This document shows positions 554 through 7,808 of a DNA stretch of 8,681 nucleotides, in pieces. Position 1 is the first letter of the stretch. The number at the start of each line of letters is the position of its first letter. The translations under genes and the position numbers were made by a program. This DNA is from Armatimonadota bacterium (GTDB lineage Bacteria; Armatimonadota; Armatimonadia; Armatimonadales; Armatimonadaceae). Below the pieces are notes generated by a model. It was not told where the DNA came from, did no database searches, and saw nothing but the letters and a program-made list of their open reading frames with translations. The stretch covers positions 1 to 8,681 of the forward strand of contig JACMIS010000627.1 in NCBI GenBank assembly GCA_014381035.1. The letters are read 5' to 3'.

Positions 554-1813
554 CTAAAGCACAAACCGAAATAGAGCACTATCGCTGCCGATGATCTCGT
601 AGCGTAAGCCGATCCCGTCCATGCGAGTTAGGAGCGGGGTGAAATCTTCCTGGCGCGTTAGTTCGATGCCGACGAGAGCCGGACCGTACTCGCGGTTGCT
701 TTTCTTGATGTACTCGAAGAGGGTAATGTCGTCGTCGGGTCCTAACGCGTCGTCGAGGTAGCGGCGCAGTGCGCCCGGACGCTGGGAAAACTCGATCAGA
801 AAATAATGCTTCAAGCCCTGATCAATCAGACTACGCTCGATGATTTCCGGGTAGCGCGTGATGTCGTTGTTGCCCCCACTCAAAATGCAGACCACCGTCG
901 CCCCGCGCAAGCGTTCGGCAAGGAGTGATAGCGCGGCGACACTGAGTGCGCCCGCCGGTTCGGCGATAATGCCCTCGCTCTGGTACAGCGCGATCATCTC
1001 CGTGCAGATTTTGCCTTCCGCGACCGGCAAAATCTCCCGCACCAGGCGCTGACAGATGCGAAAATTGTGCAGTCCCGCCGTCTTCACCGCCGCACCATCG
1101 ACGAACGTATCAATCTGCGGCAACGTCACCGGATGTCCTGCCTGCAACGCGGCGAGCATACAGGCGGCGCGGGACGGTTCGGCACCGACCAGTGTCGTTT
1201 GCGGGAAGTAGCGTTCGCCGTAGACTGCCAAGCCGCTGATCAGTCCGCCCCCACCGACCGGCGCGATCAGAAAGTCGGGCGCGACCGGCAGTTGCTCCCG
1301 TAGTTCAATACCCACTGTGCCCTGTCCGGCGATAATACGCGGGTCGTCGAACGGGTGCACGAACACCTTTTCTGCCGACTGCGCATAATCGGCGGCGAGT
1401 CGGTACGTGTCGTCGAACGTATCGCCGACCAGTTCGATATGAATCCATGTCCCGCCCAGACGGCGCACGCGCTGGATTTTCTGACGCGGCGTGTTCTGCG
1501 GCATGTAGATATGCCCCTCGATCTCCAGACGGTGACAGGTGAACGCAACGCCTTGCGCATGGTTACCCGCACTGGCGCACACTATGCCCTGTTTCCGTTC
1601 ACCCTCGGTAAGGGTACTCATCAGATTGTACGCGCCGCGCAGTTTGTAGGACCGAACGATTTGCAGGTCTTCTCGCTTGAGGTAAATCTCCGCCCCGAAC
1701 TGCTCCGACAAACGTGCACTGCGCTGGAGCGGCGTCCGCGTCACGACCGGTTCAAGCCGCCGATACGCTTCCTCGATAGATCGCACGGAAACGTCGGGTG
1801 AGGGGATGGACAT
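554..1813 (-). CDS. ilvA: Threonine ammonia-lyase (threonine deaminase), short form with one ACT-like domain
   Basis: PLP enzyme converting L-threonine to 2-oxobutanoate and ammonia, the committed step of isoleucine synthesis. From this start it has 419 residues. The PLP lysine lies in VRSYKLRGAY (K57); SAGNHAQG at about 81-88 and the phosphate-binding glycine run in PVGGGGLISG at about 185-194 are present; SGGNND near 313-318 is typical of the fold-type II C-terminal side. Residues from about 334 (LKHYFLIEFSQRPGAL) form a single regulatory ACT-like domain. This matches the roughly 420-residue Bacillus-type IlvA rather than the two-ACT-domain E. coli form, and argues for a biosynthetic, feedback-regulated enzyme rather than a catabolic TdcB. 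An in-frame ATG at 1822 would add three residues, but it overlaps a TATAAT box, so 1813 is preferred. Neither start has a clear ribosome binding site. It appears monocistronic; no other branched-chain gene is adjacent. Confidence 0.95.
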   Translation of the reverse strand: MSIPSPDVSVRSIEEAYRRLEPVVTRTPLQRSARLSEQFGAEIYLKREDLQIVRSYKLRGAYNLMSTLTEGERKQGIVCASAGNHAQGVAFTCHRLEIEGHIYMPQNTPRQKIQRVRRLGGTWIHIELVGDTFDDTYRLAADYAQSAEKVFVHPFDDPRIIAGQGTVGIELREQLPVAPDFLIAPVGGGGLISGLAVYGERYFPQTTLVGAEPSRAACMLAALQAGHPVTLPQIDTFVDGAAVKTAGLHNFRICQRLVREILPVAEGKICTEMIALYQSEGIIAEPAGALSVAALSLLAERLRGATVVCILSGGNNDITRYPEIIERSLIDQGLKHYFLIEFSQRPGALRRYLDDALGPDDDITLFEYIKKSNREYGPALVGIELTRQEDFTPLLTRMDGIGLRYEIIGSDSALFRFVL

Positions 1814-1820
1814 ACCCAAC

Positions 1821-1826
1821 ATTATA
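1821..1826 (-). promoter_or_regulatory. Candidate -10 box of ilvA, possibly giving a leaderless mRNA
   Basis: On the minus strand a perfect TATAAT is followed by GTTGGGT and then the ATG at 1813. Normal spacing from a -10 box would start transcription at about 1814 or 1813, at or one base before that ATG. I find no good -35 at 16-19 bp (the hexamer at 17 bp is CAGAGG). A TTTACA at 1853-1858 is 26 bp away, too far. The lack of a Shine-Dalgarno sequence fits leaderless translation but does not prove it. Confidence 0.45.
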
Positions 1827-2932: not shown

Positions 2933-5326
2933 CTAAAACACCACCGTCTGCTCCCCCGGCGATAGGTCACGGGACTCCCCACGCCAGGCAATCGTGCCGG
3001 TCGAACCGGCTCCCGTTTCGGGGAGCCAGACGCGGGCACGGAGCGTATCGCCATCGCGTGTGTAGGATACCGCGACAGTGCCGTCACCGTCGCCGGGAAT
3101 CGGTACCGAACCGTGTGCGACAGTCAGTGCCCCGAGGTGCGGCGTGATCTGCGTCGTTTCCCAACCGTTGCCGCCCGGATTGATCCCGAGCACGCCCGCG
3201 AAAAACTCGTAGTTCGGCGACGAACTCCACGCGTGACAGTCCGAACGCGTCGGTTCGGGCTTCTCCGCCCATGTCGTCAAGCCCAGTGCCAGCATGTCGC
3301 GCCACGGTTGCAAGTGATCGAGGTACTCATCGCCCGCGCCCGACGCCATCAGCGCACGACCGAGATAAAACCGGAAATAGAATGTCGCCTGCGTCAATGT
3401 CGGCGTATCCAGAGTCCGCGCCATCAGCAGTCGGGTTTCTGCTTCCGTTTCGCCCATCCCGGCGAGGATTGCGAGCAGGTTGCCGTGTTGCGAGAACGAC
3501 GTTTTACCCGGCGTGTCCGCGACCAGCATCGTGTCGCCGTCCAGGCACCGTTCGCGCACGGCGGCGCGTGTTTTTTGCGCCAGTTGCGCATAACCGTCCG
3601 CCGTATGCACATCCGAGGCAAACAGTTCCGCCGCCGCCTGTAGTGCGAGCACGAATTGCAGGGTGATGATCGAACCGCCGCCTTCGAGTGCGCCCGGAGG
3701 CACGCCCATCCGCCATTCATCGCACCAGTCCACGAAGTTCCAATCGGACAGCGGACCGAGCAAACCGTCGTCGCCCAAGCGGTCGGTGAACCATTCCAGC
3801 ACCGAGCGAACGCCCGGCAAAAGACTGCGCACAAATGCCGTCGAATCCGGCACGTGTCGCAGGTAGTCGTGCACCATACACACCCACCAGAGCGAGAACG
3901 GCGTGATGACCTGTGGCACTCGCGACGGGTGTCGACTCATGGTCAACCCGAACGATGCGCGGGAATCGTCGAACTGCATCAGGGCGTTTTTGAATAGGCG
4001 TGGGTCCCCGGTCTCGTACAGCGATGCGAGTGCCTGGATGCGCGTGTCCCCGGCATATTGCAACTGCTCGTAGTAGGGACAGTCCATAAACGTTTCGTGG
4101 CTACACAGTCGAAGCGTCTGCCAACCCACCTCACGGATCCGCGATAACTCCGGCATATCCGGGACCTCGAACAGTGCCTTACGTTCCCACGGATATCCGG
4201 TGTAAAAAACGGACGGAGGCTGGGAGAGTGTCAGGGGCGCGTCCGCAGTCGTTACAGTCAGTTCGGCGTAACGGAAGGTGCGCCACCAGAGTGTGTCGAG
4301 TGTTTGGGGTTCCTCCGCACCGTCCGGCTTCCACGTGTCCATATAGCCGAGTAGTCGTTTCCCCTCGATCTCGTCCCGGTTACCTTTCGCGAACGCGCCC
4401 GGCGTGATGTCGGTTTCCAGCAATGCTTCCGCGTAGCCGAGGGTGATCGTACTTCCCGCGCCACCCGATACACGGAGTTTCGGAAACCCGCACGTGTTCG
4501 CGCCGTGGTCGAACAGAAGCGTGATCGTGCTGTTTGCCGGAAAAGTGATCACGTCCTTTCCCCACCGCTTCTCGCGGATCGGTTGCGCATCGGGGGGATC
4601 GGAGACCTGGGAACGCATCGTGCCCAACCCGCGCCATGTTTCCTCCATGAGCGGCACCGTGCGCGGGACCAGCCACCAGTGCGTCTCGGCGTTCTCGGTC
4701 CCGAATGGTGCCGCCTGCTTCAACATTTTTGCTTCCACCCACCCGCTGTCGTCGAAATCGTTCCCGTTCCAGTTGCAGGGGTGCCGGGTAGCATCGAAAA
4801 TCTCGGACGGACCGACGACCGCGTAAGCCTGCAATCGGTGCGCGTGCTCCATCGTGAACGAATACGCCCCGTCCACGGCCACGCGCCAACCGTCCGGCGT
4901 GTTCGCTCCCGCTTCGGATTCCGTGTTTCCCTGCACCAGAAAGGCGGGAAACCCGGACGTAGCCTGCGCGACCGGGGCGTTCTCCCCCGCGAGAAAGTGT
5001 ACCCGTGCCGCAAGAATGTTTTCGCCCGGAGTGAGATACGGCGCAATATCAATCGTCTCGTACCGCCAGTGCATCAGGTCGCCGCGAGCCGGTCCGAATC
5101 CGACCGAGTTTCCGTTGATAAACAAGCGATACCGCTGGTCCGCAGAAATATGGATCACAAAACGTTCCGGTTTGGCGTCCAGTAAGAGTAGTTTACGAAA
5201 CAGGAACACCGCACCGGCACCGTTCAGCGCGGCTAACGCGTCGGGGTGAGCTGCCCATTTCGCGCTCCAGGTACGGCGGTGCAGTTCGGGCACGACAGAG
5301 GATAGGTCATAACGAGAAAAAGGCAT
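2933..5326 (-). CDS. GH78 alpha-L-rhamnosidase-like glycoside hydrolase
   Basis: A 797-residue protein built like family GH78 inverting alpha-L-rhamnosidases: N-terminal beta-sandwich domains (about 1-380; FVIHISADQRYRLFINGN at 56-73 and IDIAPYLTPGENILAARVHF at 92-111 are typical), an (alpha/alpha)6 barrel (about 395-710) and a C-terminal beta domain. The barrel motif DCPYYEQLQYAGD at 415-427 keeps acidic residues D415, E420 and D427 with the spacing of D567, E572 and D579 in Bacillus RhaB; E688 in LTTWAE fits the fourth acid, the proposed general base. LSDWNFVDW (527-535) is another barrel hallmark. The arginine usual in DCPxRxE is tyrosine (Y419) here, so substrate range may differ from classical rhamnosidases. 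No signal peptide is seen, which suggests cytoplasmic action on imported oligosaccharides or glycosides. The start is supported by AAGGA (5336-5340) 9 nt upstream. It appears monocistronic and could act on another deoxy-sugar. Confidence 0.88.
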   Translation of the reverse strand: MPFSRYDLSSVVPELHRRTWSAKWAAHPDALAALNGAGAVFLFRKLLLLDAKPERFVIHISADQRYRLFINGNSVGFGPARGDLMHWRYETIDIAPYLTPGENILAARVHFLAGENAPVAQATSGFPAFLVQGNTESEAGANTPDGWRVAVDGAYSFTMEHAHRLQAYAVVGPSEIFDATRHPCNWNGNDFDDSGWVEAKMLKQAAPFGTENAETHWWLVPRTVPLMEETWRGLGTMRSQVSDPPDAQPIREKRWGKDVITFPANSTITLLFDHGANTCGFPKLRVSGGAGSTITLGYAEALLETDITPGAFAKGNRDEIEGKRLLGYMDTWKPDGAEEPQTLDTLWWRTFRYAELTVTTADAPLTLSQPPSVFYTGYPWERKALFEVPDMPELSRIREVGWQTLRLCSHETFMDCPYYEQLQYAGDTRIQALASLYETGDPRLFKNALMQFDDSRASFGLTMSRHPSRVPQVITPFSLWWVCMVHDYLRHVPDSTAFVRSLLPGVRSVLEWFTDRLGDDGLLGPLSDWNFVDWCDEWRMGVPPGALEGGGSIITLQFVLALQAAAELFASDVHTADGYAQLAQKTRAAVRERCLDGDTMLVADTPGKTSFSQHGNLLAILAGMGETEAETRLLMARTLDTPTLTQATFYFRFYLGRALMASGAGDEYLDHLQPWRDMLALGLTTWAEKPEPTRSDCHAWSSSPNYEFFAGVLGINPGGNGWETTQITPHLGALTVAHGSVPIPGDGDGTVAVSYTRDGDTLRARVWLPETGAGSTGTIAWRGESRDLSPGEQTVVF

Positions 5327-5511
5327 CGACTATGGTCCTTATAGAAAGATCGTCAATTTATTGAAACGGAACCAATTCCGCAGTTGTCTTGTATTTATAC
5401 CCGCAAGCAAATGCTCGTGCCGTTCGACGCCGAACCGATTGCGACACTCTTGCGAGATTTTTGATAGAACGATTCGGCGAAAAGATGATAGAGACTTTTA
5501 ACAAGAAGAAT
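5327..5511. other. Intergenic stretch upstream of the GH78 gene
   Basis: Should contain the minus-strand promoter of the glycosidase gene, but I find no convincing pair of hexamers: TTGACG (minus strand, about 5349-5354) and a nearby TATAAG are not properly spaced. Open frames exist on both strands, but those here start with non-ATG codons or lack a ribosome binding site. No RNA gene or repeat is visible. Confidence 0.4.
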
Positions 5512-5688
5512 ATGGGTTTACGTGGTTCCGGCGCGTACAAGGCGACCGGCGATTTCGAGATAGCGCGACGTGTCGGCGGGGGCAAAGCCCTCGATCTGCG
5601 ATCCGAGCCGCAAACCGAAACGGACCGCGCCCTCACCCACTCCCGAGAGTTACTCGCACGACTACGGCGTATGGTGACCAATCCCTGA
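5512..5688 (+). CDS. Possible small protein of unknown function (58 residues)
   Basis: I do not recognise this product. It is short and basic, begins MGLRGSGAYKATGDFEIARR, has a Gly-rich centre (RVGGGKALDL) and ends in a likely helix (ETDRALTHSRELLARLRRM). About two thirds of its codons end in G or C, as expected for a coding frame here, and a purine-rich AAGAAG lies just upstream, though closer than ideal. The same frame is open upstream to an ATG at 5485 (67 residues) and a TTG at 5389 (99 residues). It sits between the divergent GH78 gene and the sensor operon. It could be a genuine small gene or a chance open frame; without homologues I cannot decide. Confidence 0.35.
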   Translation: MGLRGSGAYKATGDFEIARRVGGGKALDLRSEPQTETDRALTHSRELLARLRRMVTNP

Positions 5689-5777: not shown

Positions 5778-5796
5778 ATTAACGGCGTGGTACAAT
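5767..5796 (+). promoter_or_regulatory. Candidate sigma-70-type promoter of the sensor-kinase operon
   Basis: An extended -10 element TGGTACAAT (5788-5796) matches TGnTAnAAT. A -35-like CTGACC (5767-5772, four of six to TTGACA) lies 18 bp upstream of TACAAT. The predicted transcript starts near 5803, leaving a leader of about 57 nt before the GTG start at 5860. Confidence 0.5.
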
Positions 5797-5859: not shown

Positions 5860-6846
5860 GTGGACTTCTGGCAAGAACTATTTAATGGGGACGGCTTCAT
5901 GCCGCGCCGGCTATGCGGAAATTGGAGCGAGGGTCTGATATGGCTTCATGTCGTCTCGGATTCCGTTATCTTTCTCGCCTACCTGTGGATTCCTCTCACC
6001 ATGCTCGTGGCGTTCCGTGGTCAGGGCAAGAAACTGGTGATTCCGCGTGCGACATGGCTTTTGATATCGCTTTACATCACTTTCATCGCCGCCTGTGGCT
6101 TCACCCATTTTTTTGACGCGCTGATGTTCTGGGCTCCGGTCTATCGGGCCAACGGGGTTGTTCGGGCATTGACCGCTGTGGTTTCACTATTGACCGCAGT
6201 AAGCCTTTCGCGCCTTATCCCGGTGGCGATTACCGCCCCGATCGCGATGGACACCCAGCAACGACTTGTTACGCAACAACAAGCATGGTTGCGTGACATT
6301 CTCGATTCGGCGACCGGCGGCGTTCTGCGCCTGTGTGCCTCCGCCAAGGATTTACCGGAACCGATTTCGGACGCGCCGCAAGAGGTTTCCATCATGGGTG
6401 CCGGGGATCTGGGTGTGTTACGGCGGTTGCTCACCCGGCAGGCAACCGGGGCGGATTTCGATACGGGACGTAAAGACGCTTTGCTCACCGCGACGCACGA
6501 GGCGGCAATGAACGCGCTCCGGCATGCGGGCGGCGGCACGGTACGGGTTTTTCAGCACGGGGATGCCTTGCAAGTATGGATTGCAGACACCGGGCTGGGA
6601 ATTCCTCTCGATAAATTGCCTATCTCCACACTCAAGCAGGGTTATTCCTCCGCGGGGACGGCGGGACAGGGTTGGTTTCTGATGCTGTCCAGTGTCGACG
6701 CCGCTTATCTTTACACCGGGCAGACCGGAACCACGATTGTTTTACAGATGAACCGGACAGCTCCCGAGCCGATGATCCCGCTTTCCCAATGGACAGGCGG
6801 CGACGTTCCGACACCGGGTCCGTTCGGTGATGCCGCCCTCGCATGA
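5860..6846 (+). CDS. Ethylene-receptor-like membrane sensor fused to an RsbW-type HATPase
   Basis: A 328-residue inner-membrane sensor. Residues about 24-122 form three membrane helices closely resembling the ethylene-binding domain of plant ETR1 and cyanobacterial relatives: SDSVIFLAYLWIPL in helix 1, FIAACGFTHFFDA in helix 2 and LTAVVSLLTAVSLSRLIP in helix 3. The ETR1 residues D25, Y32, P36, I62, C65 and H69 correspond to D34, Y41, P45, I76, C79 and H83; the cysteine-histidine pair binds copper(I) in ETR1. A short helical linker (131-160) leads to a HATPase_c_2/RsbW-like ATPase (about 183-297) with an N-box (E214, N218 in THEAAMNALRHA), a G1 motif DTGLG (243-247) and a GQG glycine motif (269-271). 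I see no GAF, PAS or HisKA region and no receiver, so signalling is probably by protein-protein or anti-sigma-type action rather than His-Asp relay. The GTG start is backed by GGGAAGG (5846-5852) and by the N-terminal match to bacterial relatives; an ATG at 5899 also has a GGGGA upstream. The 3' end overlaps the next gene. Confidence 0.88.
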   Translation: MDFWQELFNGDGFMPRRLCGNWSEGLIWLHVVSDSVIFLAYLWIPLTMLVAFRGQGKKLVIPRATWLLISLYITFIAACGFTHFFDALMFWAPVYRANGVVRALTAVVSLLTAVSLSRLIPVAITAPIAMDTQQRLVTQQQAWLRDILDSATGGVLRLCASAKDLPEPISDAPQEVSIMGAGDLGVLRRLLTRQATGADFDTGRKDALLTATHEAAMNALRHAGGGTVRVFQHGDALQVWIADTGLGIPLDKLPISTLKQGYSSAGTAGQGWFLMLSSVDAAYLYTGQTGTTIVLQMNRTAPEPMIPLSQWTGGDVPTPGPFGDAALA

Positions 6847-7808
6847 ATGCCGACCGGTTGATACTGGGAATCGATCTGGGGGGTACGAAATCTGCCGCCA
6901 CGTTGCAAAGGCCCGGCGGCGTTGTGCGCTACCGGGTTGCCGCGCCCCCCCGGGCGCAGGTTGGCTCCGACGCGGTGATCGCCGCTTTGATCTCACTCGC
7001 TCGGAACGCGCAACAGGCGGCAATCGACTTCGAAACCGTCGTCGCCGGGTGCGGTATCTCTGCCGGGGCACCTGCGGATGCCGCCCGCGGTATCGTCTAC
7101 CCGGCACCGAACCTGCCGGGTTGGTCGCCGAACGGCACCCCGCTCGCCGAAATTGTCGGCGACGCGCTGCATCTGCCAACCTACCTGGAAAACGACGCGG
7201 ACGCGACCGCGCTTGCCGAATGGCGATTCGGGGCAGGGCGGGGAACCGGGACGATGGTGTTCCTGACACAGGGGACGGGTATCGGGGCGGGATTGGTGCT
7301 GGACGGCAGACTGCATCGCGGCGCGTTCGGGGCGGGCGGCGAGATCGGGCATGTCTGCGTGGACACTTCGGAGACGGCACGGGTTTGTAGTTGCGGCTTG
7401 CGCGGTTGCCTCGAAGCCTACGCATCCGGTCCGTCCGTGATGCGGATAGCACTGCAGAATGGCTATGCCGGGGAGCAGACTGGTGCCGCCGTCGCTGGTG
7501 CCGCGCGAAACGGAGACCCCGCCGCTATCGCCGCGTTCAGACTCGCCGCCGACAAACTGGGGCGCGGACTCGCGGTCCTCGCCATGCTCCTGAACCCCGA
7601 ACGAATCATTCTCGGAACCCTCGCCGTGCATGCGGGCGATCTGCTTCTCGCGGACACCCTGAAATCGCTGCATCGCCACGCCTGGAAACGGCTCACCGAG
7701 ACGGTGACCATCGCTCCCGCCGAACTCGGCGACCGGGCGCAAGATCTCGCCGCGCTCTGCGTCTACCTATCCCGCACCGACGAAAGCAATGGTACAATGT
7801 CCCGGTAA
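6843..7808 (+). CDS. ROK-family sugar kinase (glucokinase-like)
   Basis: A 321-residue cytoplasmic kinase expected to phosphorylate glucose or a related hexose with ATP. The N-terminal phosphate-binding loop ILGIDLGGTK is at 7-16; the sugar-binding END triad is at 116-118 (D118 the likely catalytic base); GTGIGAGLVLDG (144-155) is the second ATP loop; GEIGH (166-170) gives E167 and zinc-ligand H170; CSCGLRGCLE (182-191) is the ROK zinc motif with C182, C184 and C189. There is no N-terminal helix-turn-helix, so it is a kinase rather than a NagC/XylR-type repressor. The ATG at 6843 overlaps the sensor's TGA (ATGA) and no independent ribosome binding site is evident, so it is probably translationally coupled in a two-gene operon. 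Substrate could be glucose, mannose, allose, fructose or an amino sugar; sequence alone does not settle it. Confidence 0.93.
   Translation: MNADRLILGIDLGGTKSAATLQRPGGVVRYRVAAPPRAQVGSDAVIAALISLARNAQQAAIDFETVVAGCGISAGAPADAARGIVYPAPNLPGWSPNGTPLAEIVGDALHLPTYLENDADATALAEWRFGAGRGTGTMVFLTQGTGIGAGLVLDGRLHRGAFGAGGEIGHVCVDTSETARVCSCGLRGCLEAYASGPSVMRIALQNGYAGEQTGAAVAGAARNGDPAAIAAFRLAADKLGRGLAVLAMLLNPERIILGTLAVHAGDLLLADTLKSLHRHAWKRLTETVTIAPAELGDRAQDLAALCVYLSRTDESNGTMSR
7790..7798 (+). promoter_or_regulatory. Candidate extended -10 element upstream of ndk
   Basis: TGGTACAAT lies inside the last codons of the ROK gene and is identical to the nine bases at 5788-5796. No good -35 is seen at 16-18 bp (TCCCGC or ATCCCG). 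If used, the ndk mRNA would start near 7805 and carry a leader of over 200 nt containing the whole palindrome at 7861-8008. Confidence 0.35.

Follow-up and report, generated by a model that had tools for sequence, protein, structure and literature searches.

What bacteria do with their ethylene-binding domains is still largely an open question, and it is posed in concrete form by one gene on a contig of an Armatimonadota bacterium (JACMIS010000627.1, assembly GCA_014381035.1; this whole stretch of 8,681 nucleotides is called the window here). Its predicted product joins an ETR1_N copper domain directly to an RsbW/SpoIIAB-type kinase domain and not to a histidine kinase. This suggests another route from a gas or copper signal to the stress response. 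Which partner, then, would such a sensor address? The reading that we hold to be somewhat better than an even prospect is that of a membrane copper-site sensor that switches an RsbW-type kinase acting on STAS proteins, and that does so in trans, as an orphan.

The sensor domain, the coupler and the ATPase

The open frame that had been delimited in a preliminary description is genuine (Table 1). The three N-terminal helices of its product are shown, by homology only, to be an ethylene-receptor-type copper site: Pfam ETR1_N (PF25487) matched residues 26-124 with 88.3 bits against a cut-off of 27 (E 4.1e-25), which places the helices in this family and not in another. The hydropathy of the sensor gave three peaks, three transmembrane helices are predicted, and the predicted model has helices at residues 24-55, 63-87 and in the first part of 92-151. 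In alignment A3 (57 rows, the window protein plus P0002-P0057; gaps are left out of all counts), helix 1 keeps D34 (50/50), Y41 (50/50), I44 (49/50) and P45 (50/50), and helix 2 keeps I76, C79 and H83 (53/53 each). The preliminary description had named six of these residues, D34, Y41, P45, I76, C79 and H83, each at its correct position; I44 is the seventh, and completes the AtETR1 set of seven required for ethylene binding. The identity of these seven residues in AtETR1 is said to have been worked out by Wang et al. 2006, and the offset from AtETR1 numbering is constant per helix, +9 in helix 1 and +14 in helix 2. The passages of PMC11819568 at hand give the number of required residues as seven without listing them, and part of PMC12643061 assigns the ETR1 copper site to Asp25/Cys65/His69.

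The ethylene-binding residues are kept in the fusion rows as strictly as in 61 sampled histidine-kinase-type domains (L021-L026, P0058-P0072 and 40 drawn from 119 new listed proteins). The position of ETR1 Lys91, a residue said in part of PMC11819568 to take part in receptor output, is Arg in 55/55 fusion rows versus Lys in 52 and Arg in 9 of those 61 domains.

The C-terminal part was matched by HATPase_c_2 (residues 184-296, 38.1 bits against a cut-off of 27.4, E 1.8e-9) and by HATPase_c (residues 205-280, 27.4 bits, E 4.9e-6); apart from these two and ETR1_N, no Pfam family was listed in the window protein at a maximum E of 10. In a profile alignment the columns of E214 and N218 are those of E46 and N50 of SpoIIAB (1til), and in both profile and predicted fold SpoIIAB/RsbW ranked first, nearer than histidine kinases. 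The best NCBIfam model was RsbA_anti_sig (NF041045; residues 162-297, 42.5 bits, under its curated cut-off of 210), which all 57 family rows match at E<=0.001, and behind it came six histidine-kinase or response-regulator models at E 0.009 or weaker. At the same threshold, SpoIIAB was matched by 17/57 rows and RsbW PRK04069 by 13/57. The two domains of the preliminary description, ethylene-receptor-type sensor and RsbW/HATPase_c_2 module, are borne out by profile, conservation, predicted structure and phylogeny, and profile and predicted fold show the order of the protein's parts, in which a helix 3 rod leads through a conserved coupler to an RsbW/SpoIIAB-type ATP-binding kinase domain.

In the predicted model helix 3 extends to about residue 151, and within residues 133-166 or so Q133, W143-L144, D149, T152, G154, L158-C159 and L165-P166 are near-invariant in A3; a similar leader also stands ahead of the ATPase in PAS/GAF paralogues. 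The preliminary description had seen here a short linker without HisKA. The absence of HisKA stands, and the short, featureless linker gives way to a conserved coupler and an extended helix 3. Pfam listed no HisKA in the window protein up to E 10, although most matches weaker than about 0.1 do not pass HMMER's filters, and residues 120-212 hold no conserved phospho-acceptor His, any one column sharing a His in at most 16 of the 57 rows. A HisKA-like helix with a phosphorylatable histidine was thus not seen in the Pfam listing or the A3 columns, and a hidden HisKA in the linker was rejected on these two grounds.

Family and descent of the fusion

A protein search returned 72 proteins at E<=1e-5, among which P0001-P0057 form the fusion family (P0001 is the window's own protein). 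A survey for the same two-domain architecture, as the preliminary description had proposed, found both domains in 52 of these 57, while five are fragments 209-244 aa long. Mean column identity in alignment A1 is 57%. The idea that a chance CxxxH in unrelated helices had come to stand on an ordinary ATPase, or that the gene is decaying, therefore keeps hardly any probability: nothing was found in its favour, and the ETR1_N match at E 4e-25, the 52 two-domain proteins and the column identity refute it. The remaining 15 proteins (P0058-P0072) are histidine-kinase-type ETR1_N proteins, with HisKA listed in 14; in P0061 the HisKA match falls just short of the cut-off (24.5 versus 26.9 bits). The best 120 other ETR1_N proteins listed were all histidine kinases.

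A genome scan gave five fusion copies (G001-G005), every one from a record with Armatimonadota, Armatimonadetes or Armatimonadaceae in its title, and each genome has a single ETR1_N match. Across 291 genomes of the phylum, ETR1_N exceeded its cut-off in 11, namely in the five fusion genomes and in six more whose ETR1_N proteins read like histidine kinases. In an ETR1_N tree the 50 fusion domains separated from the 61 histidine-kinase-type domains with support 0.98, and in a tree of the module ATPase 55 fusion sequences separated from 44 other ATPases with support 0.953. As the fusion clade is split off in both trees, both halves seem to descend jointly from a single fusion, within the sampled sequences. 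Family members already carry automatic names such as 'ATP-binding protein' or 'anti-sigma regulatory factor'. For P0003 and P0047 the labels conflict (ncbi Akkermansiaceae and Cytophagales versus nr Armatimonadota), and these are probably mislabelled bins.

Partner switching as the candidate output

The first clue to the output comes from relatives of the ATPase module. A search with residues 134-312 listed 58 proteins at E<=1e-10, of which P0073-P0078 were additional to the 72 above. These six have the ATPase and a leader of the same type (FLRDVLxSVTEGRLRLC..DLPEP where it is best kept). Their N-terminal parts differ: PAS and/or GAF in P0073-P0075, membrane helices in P0078, a hydrophobic N-terminus without Pfam match in P0077, and little beyond the module in P0076 (197 aa). 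At E<=1e-15 the module occurs in 44/291 genomes of G004's phylum. In the seven genomes searched, SpoIIE phosphatases number 14-44 per genome and a SpoIIE match lies within 3 kb of 18 of the 62 listed module matches; in G021, a genome of one contig, 5/12 modules lie near SpoIIE, versus a mean of 0.45 and a maximum of 4 in 5000 random placements. Pfam confirmed all three module-SpoIIE pairs that were scanned. At L071 (2301-4579, minus strand) a REC-SpoIIE gene adjoins a REC-module gene 17 bases away, a phosphatase and a likely kinase both under receiver control; at L076 a GAF-SpoIIE gene overlaps a membrane-sensor module gene by 4 bases; and at L074 PAS-SpoIIE adjoins PAS-module. The L071 pair also adjoins a protein with three receiver stretches, and at G001:C800 the SpoIIE match and the module match both fall in one open frame of 1355 aa, apparently a fusion of phosphatase and kinase.

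The second clue comes from the five fusion genomes themselves, each of which has 6-11 STAS matches and a cassette of a STAS gene, an RsbW-like gene and a SigBFG-type sigma gene, in this order (5/5). The sigma match exceeds the SigBFG cut-off in G001, G003 and G005. Pfam confirmed the STAS, HATPase_c_2 and sigma regions of the G001 cassette; in the other cassettes the RsbW-like gene was assigned by reading. All five cassette STAS proteins carry DSTGLG, which we take to be an RsbV-like phospho-site. In Bacillus, according to part of PMC11418112, SpoIIE and RsbU dephosphorylate SpoIIAA and RsbV, which in their unphosphorylated form bind SpoIIAB and RsbW, so that sigma factors are freed. A survey of co-occurring STAS and SpoIIE genes, also proposed in the preliminary description, thus found the cassette in all five fusion genomes, and found nothing of the kind beside the fusion gene.

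STAS is proposed as the kinase target because the paralogues pair with SpoIIE and the same genomes carry the STAS-RsbW-SigBFG cassette. The ligand at the copper site would be ethylene or another small pi-ligand, although binding of copper or ethylene by the sensor is itself predicted from the kept residues. Its state would most likely alter helix 3, in register or in dimer state, and thereby switch the kinase, which would most likely phosphorylate the conserved serine of at least one STAS antagonist, opposing SpoIIE-type phosphatases. This phosphorylation would set the amount of SigBFG-type sigma factor released by its RsbW, and the net effect would be a gas or copper input added to the partner-switching network. 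We infer both the direction of this control and that the sensor acts in trans, as an orphan gene. A partner-switching output is backed indirectly, by the kept SpoIIAB/RsbW catalytic residues, the SpoIIE-paired paralogues and the cassette in five genomes. The fuller proposal, in which an ethylene or small-alkene receptor of Armatimonadota would signal by Ser/Thr partner switching, gating an RsbW-type kinase and setting a SigB-type sigma factor, is advanced tentatively, as something short of an even prospect.

Several observations weigh against this reading. The sigma match is partial and under the cut-off in G002, where it leaves the contig stretch, and in G004, where it spans part of the model. 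Neither the window frames scanned nor the surroundings of the five genome copies showed a STAS, SpoIIE or SigBFG gene next to the sensor; the nearest SpoIIE to the fusion gene lies at 16.5 kb in G005 and 45 kb in G004, the other three fusion genes being on contigs of 5-9 kb, too short to judge this distance. A STAS lies within 5 kb of a module in 0/38 cases (five genomes with STAS data, many of their contigs short), and the STAS and SpoIIE data come from relatives' genomes, not from the window organism's own. As to the ATPase, its lid is poorly modelled, with low confidence at residues 260-269, and a single-sequence search of PDB chains with the window protein put histidine kinases first (VraS E 0.011, DevS 0.096) and listed neither SpoIIAB nor RsbW. 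The NCBIfam SpoIIAB and RsbW models gave no match to the window protein at E<=0.001, and histidine-kinase models match some family rows (ZraS 7/57, DcuS/MalK 5/57).

The main rival that shares this frame has no phosphorylation step: the ATPase would be a ligand-gated binding partner and not a STAS kinase, either sequestering sigma directly or activating a SpoIIE/RsbU-type phosphatase as RsbT does. SpoIIAB and RsbW also bind sigma factors (part of PMC11418112), RsbU is bound and activated by RsbT (part of PMC12143880), and the SpoIIE genes pair with module paralogues without an adjoining STAS gene. Against it, the kinase-site residues E214, N218, D243, G245 and G247 are invariant in the 57 rows, and the separate sensors on SpoIIE and module (REC/REC at L071, PAS/PAS at L074) suit opposed enzymes at least as well as an activator and its target; we consider this role rather unlikely. 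GHKL ATPases are common to histidine kinases, and the HATPase_c match, the first rank of VraS and the histidine-kinase nature of the other ETR1_N proteins would all suit a split or unorthodox histidine kinase that phosphorylates a histidine or the response regulator of a partner, as would the two-component genes that, by reading, lie some 3-8 kb from the sensor at L004 and L005. With no HisKA listed and no conserved linker His, with a fold and profile closer to SpoIIAB/RsbW, and with none of the eight scanned window frames matching a response regulator, this is improbable.

The input half leaves more room for an alternative. That the sensor no longer responds to ethylene, and reads copper, redox state, CO or another unsaturated gas, is quite conceivable, if still the lesser chance, and is compatible with the output proposed above. 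No window gene scanned is an ethylene enzyme by family name, no paper was found that pairs 'ethylene receptor' with 'Armatimonadetes', and the Lys91 equivalent is uniformly Arg; on the other side stand the strictly kept ethylene-binding residues and the fact that a bacterial domain of the same type binds ethylene (part of PMC11819568).

That domain belongs to AzoEtr1 of Azospirillum brasilense, described in the same passages as a functional bacterial receptor that binds ethylene through an ETR1_N-type domain. The window protein resembles AzoEtr1 and SynEtr1 of Synechocystis in the N-terminal three-helix domain and its seven site residues; however, in those receptors PAS or cyanobacteriochrome domains come next, with a histidine kinase (parts of PMC11819568 and PMC6682694), whereas here an RsbW/SpoIIAB-type ATPase follows. 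With RsbW and SpoIIAB it shares the fold, the N-box E/N and DxGxG, but these are soluble proteins of about 140 aa (PDB chain lengths), while the window protein is predicted to be membrane-bound, fused to a sensor and an orphan. The genes of RsbW and SpoIIAB stand together with those of their STAS partner and sigma factor. RsbA-type regulators have a MEDS sensor; the window ATPase aligns with NF041045 far below its cut-off, and the N-terminal part is ETR1_N and not an RsbA-type sensor. Unlike RsbU-RsbW fusions such as Rv1364c (PDB 3ke6), the protein has no phosphatase domain. The predicted outputs of bacterial ethylene-binding domains vary widely according to part of a review (PMC7700396), and the characterised receptors in the literature examined are histidine kinases. 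A literature search found no paper linking an ethylene receptor to an RsbW-type output, although such a combination may already be drawn in earlier literature.

If the partner-switching proposal is true, the ethylene-binding domain has, at least once, been taken over for an output chemistry fundamentally different from phosphorelay, and a phylum that has received little study would offer a concrete, testable case of a diffusible gas tied to stress control by partner switching. With a copper domain, one rod and a known kinase fold in 328 aa, the receptor would also be a minimal test bed for signal transmission by ETR1_N.

A second type of membrane sensor occurs in the phylum (P0078; L027; L076 3752-5035, minus strand; L029; L030), with a stretch, C(G/A)(V/I)GH(F/L)LEG.SYW, like ETR1 helix 2. 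By eye, extra helices are inserted and the helix-1 Asp and Pro are not kept. In P0078, L027 and L029 it is joined to the same ATPase module. Its ETR1_N matches are sub-threshold (17.9 bits in P0078, 22.8 in L027), and hhalign gave a probability of 88.6% against alignment A4 and 18% against A3. It is possibly a distant cousin of the ethylene-binding domain.

Gene neighbourhood

Table 1. Features of the sensor gene and its surroundings, in window positions, with the STAS-RsbW-SigBFG cassettes of the five fusion genomes.
Feature	Position	Strand	Remarks
ETR1_N-HATPase_c_2 sensor kinase gene	5860..6846	+	GTG start, 328 aa; 56 further family rows in alignment A3
ETR1_N ethylene/copper-binding transmembrane domain (predicted)	5935..6231	+	residues 26-124, Pfam PF25487
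Helix 1 site residues D34, Y41, I44, P45	5959..5994	+	A3 conservation
Helix 2 site residues I76, C79, H83 (CGFTH)	6085..6108	+	A3 conservation
R102, equivalent of ETR1 Lys91, helix 3	6163..6165	+	R in 55/55 non-gap fusion rows
Coupler: helix 3 continuation and conserved leader QQQAWLRDILDSATGGVLRLC...DLP	6232..6399	+	residues 125-180; no conserved His
SpoIIAB/RsbW-fold ATPase	6367..6759	+	residues 170-300, profile and predicted fold
N-box HEAAMNALRH with E214, N218	6496..6525	+	E 57/57, N 57/57 (A3)
G1 box D243xG245xG247	6586..6603	+	57/57 each (A3)
G2-like lid GTAGQGW	6655..6675	+	residues 266-272; G269, G271 in 55/55 non-gap rows (A3)
Extended -10 promoter-like TGGTACAAT	5788..5796	+	recurs upstream of the gene in L001, L002
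ROK-family (glucokinase-like) gene	6843..7808	+	4-base overlap with sensor stop codon
STAS-RsbW-SigBFG cassettes			G001:C749, G002:C302, G003:C92, G004:C46, G005:C433

In the window the sensor gene is followed by the ROK gene and then by NDK, an order found again in L002 and kept in L001 up to the contig's end. Among L001-L005, ROK adjoins the sensor only in L001 and L002, and neither ROK nor NDK has a match at L003-L005; a conserved operon partner was therefore rejected. Promoter-like sites number 3 versus 1.2 expected from shuffles, and the evidence for TGGTACAAT as a promoter is therefore weak on its own. PADLOC gave no match at E<=0.01 and Rfam none at gathering scores, and a defence role and RNA elements within the window were rejected accordingly.

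Upstream of the sensor, a 67-aa open frame (5485-5688, plus strand) is conserved in L001 (2641-2847) and L002 (1717-1914), its differences from the L001 copy by codon position being 8, 7 and 26 over 57 codons, mostly third. PADLOC gave no match for it, nor did Pfam or NCBIfam for the longer frame 5389-5688, and its product would be a small protein. L001 and L002 share with the window a rhamnosidase-like (Bac_rhamnosid) gene near the sensor (2933-5326, minus strand, in the window). A threonine dehydratase gene near the sensor in the window (554-1822, minus strand) directly adjoins it in L005 (8531-9766, minus strand), and the two copies are 61% identical.
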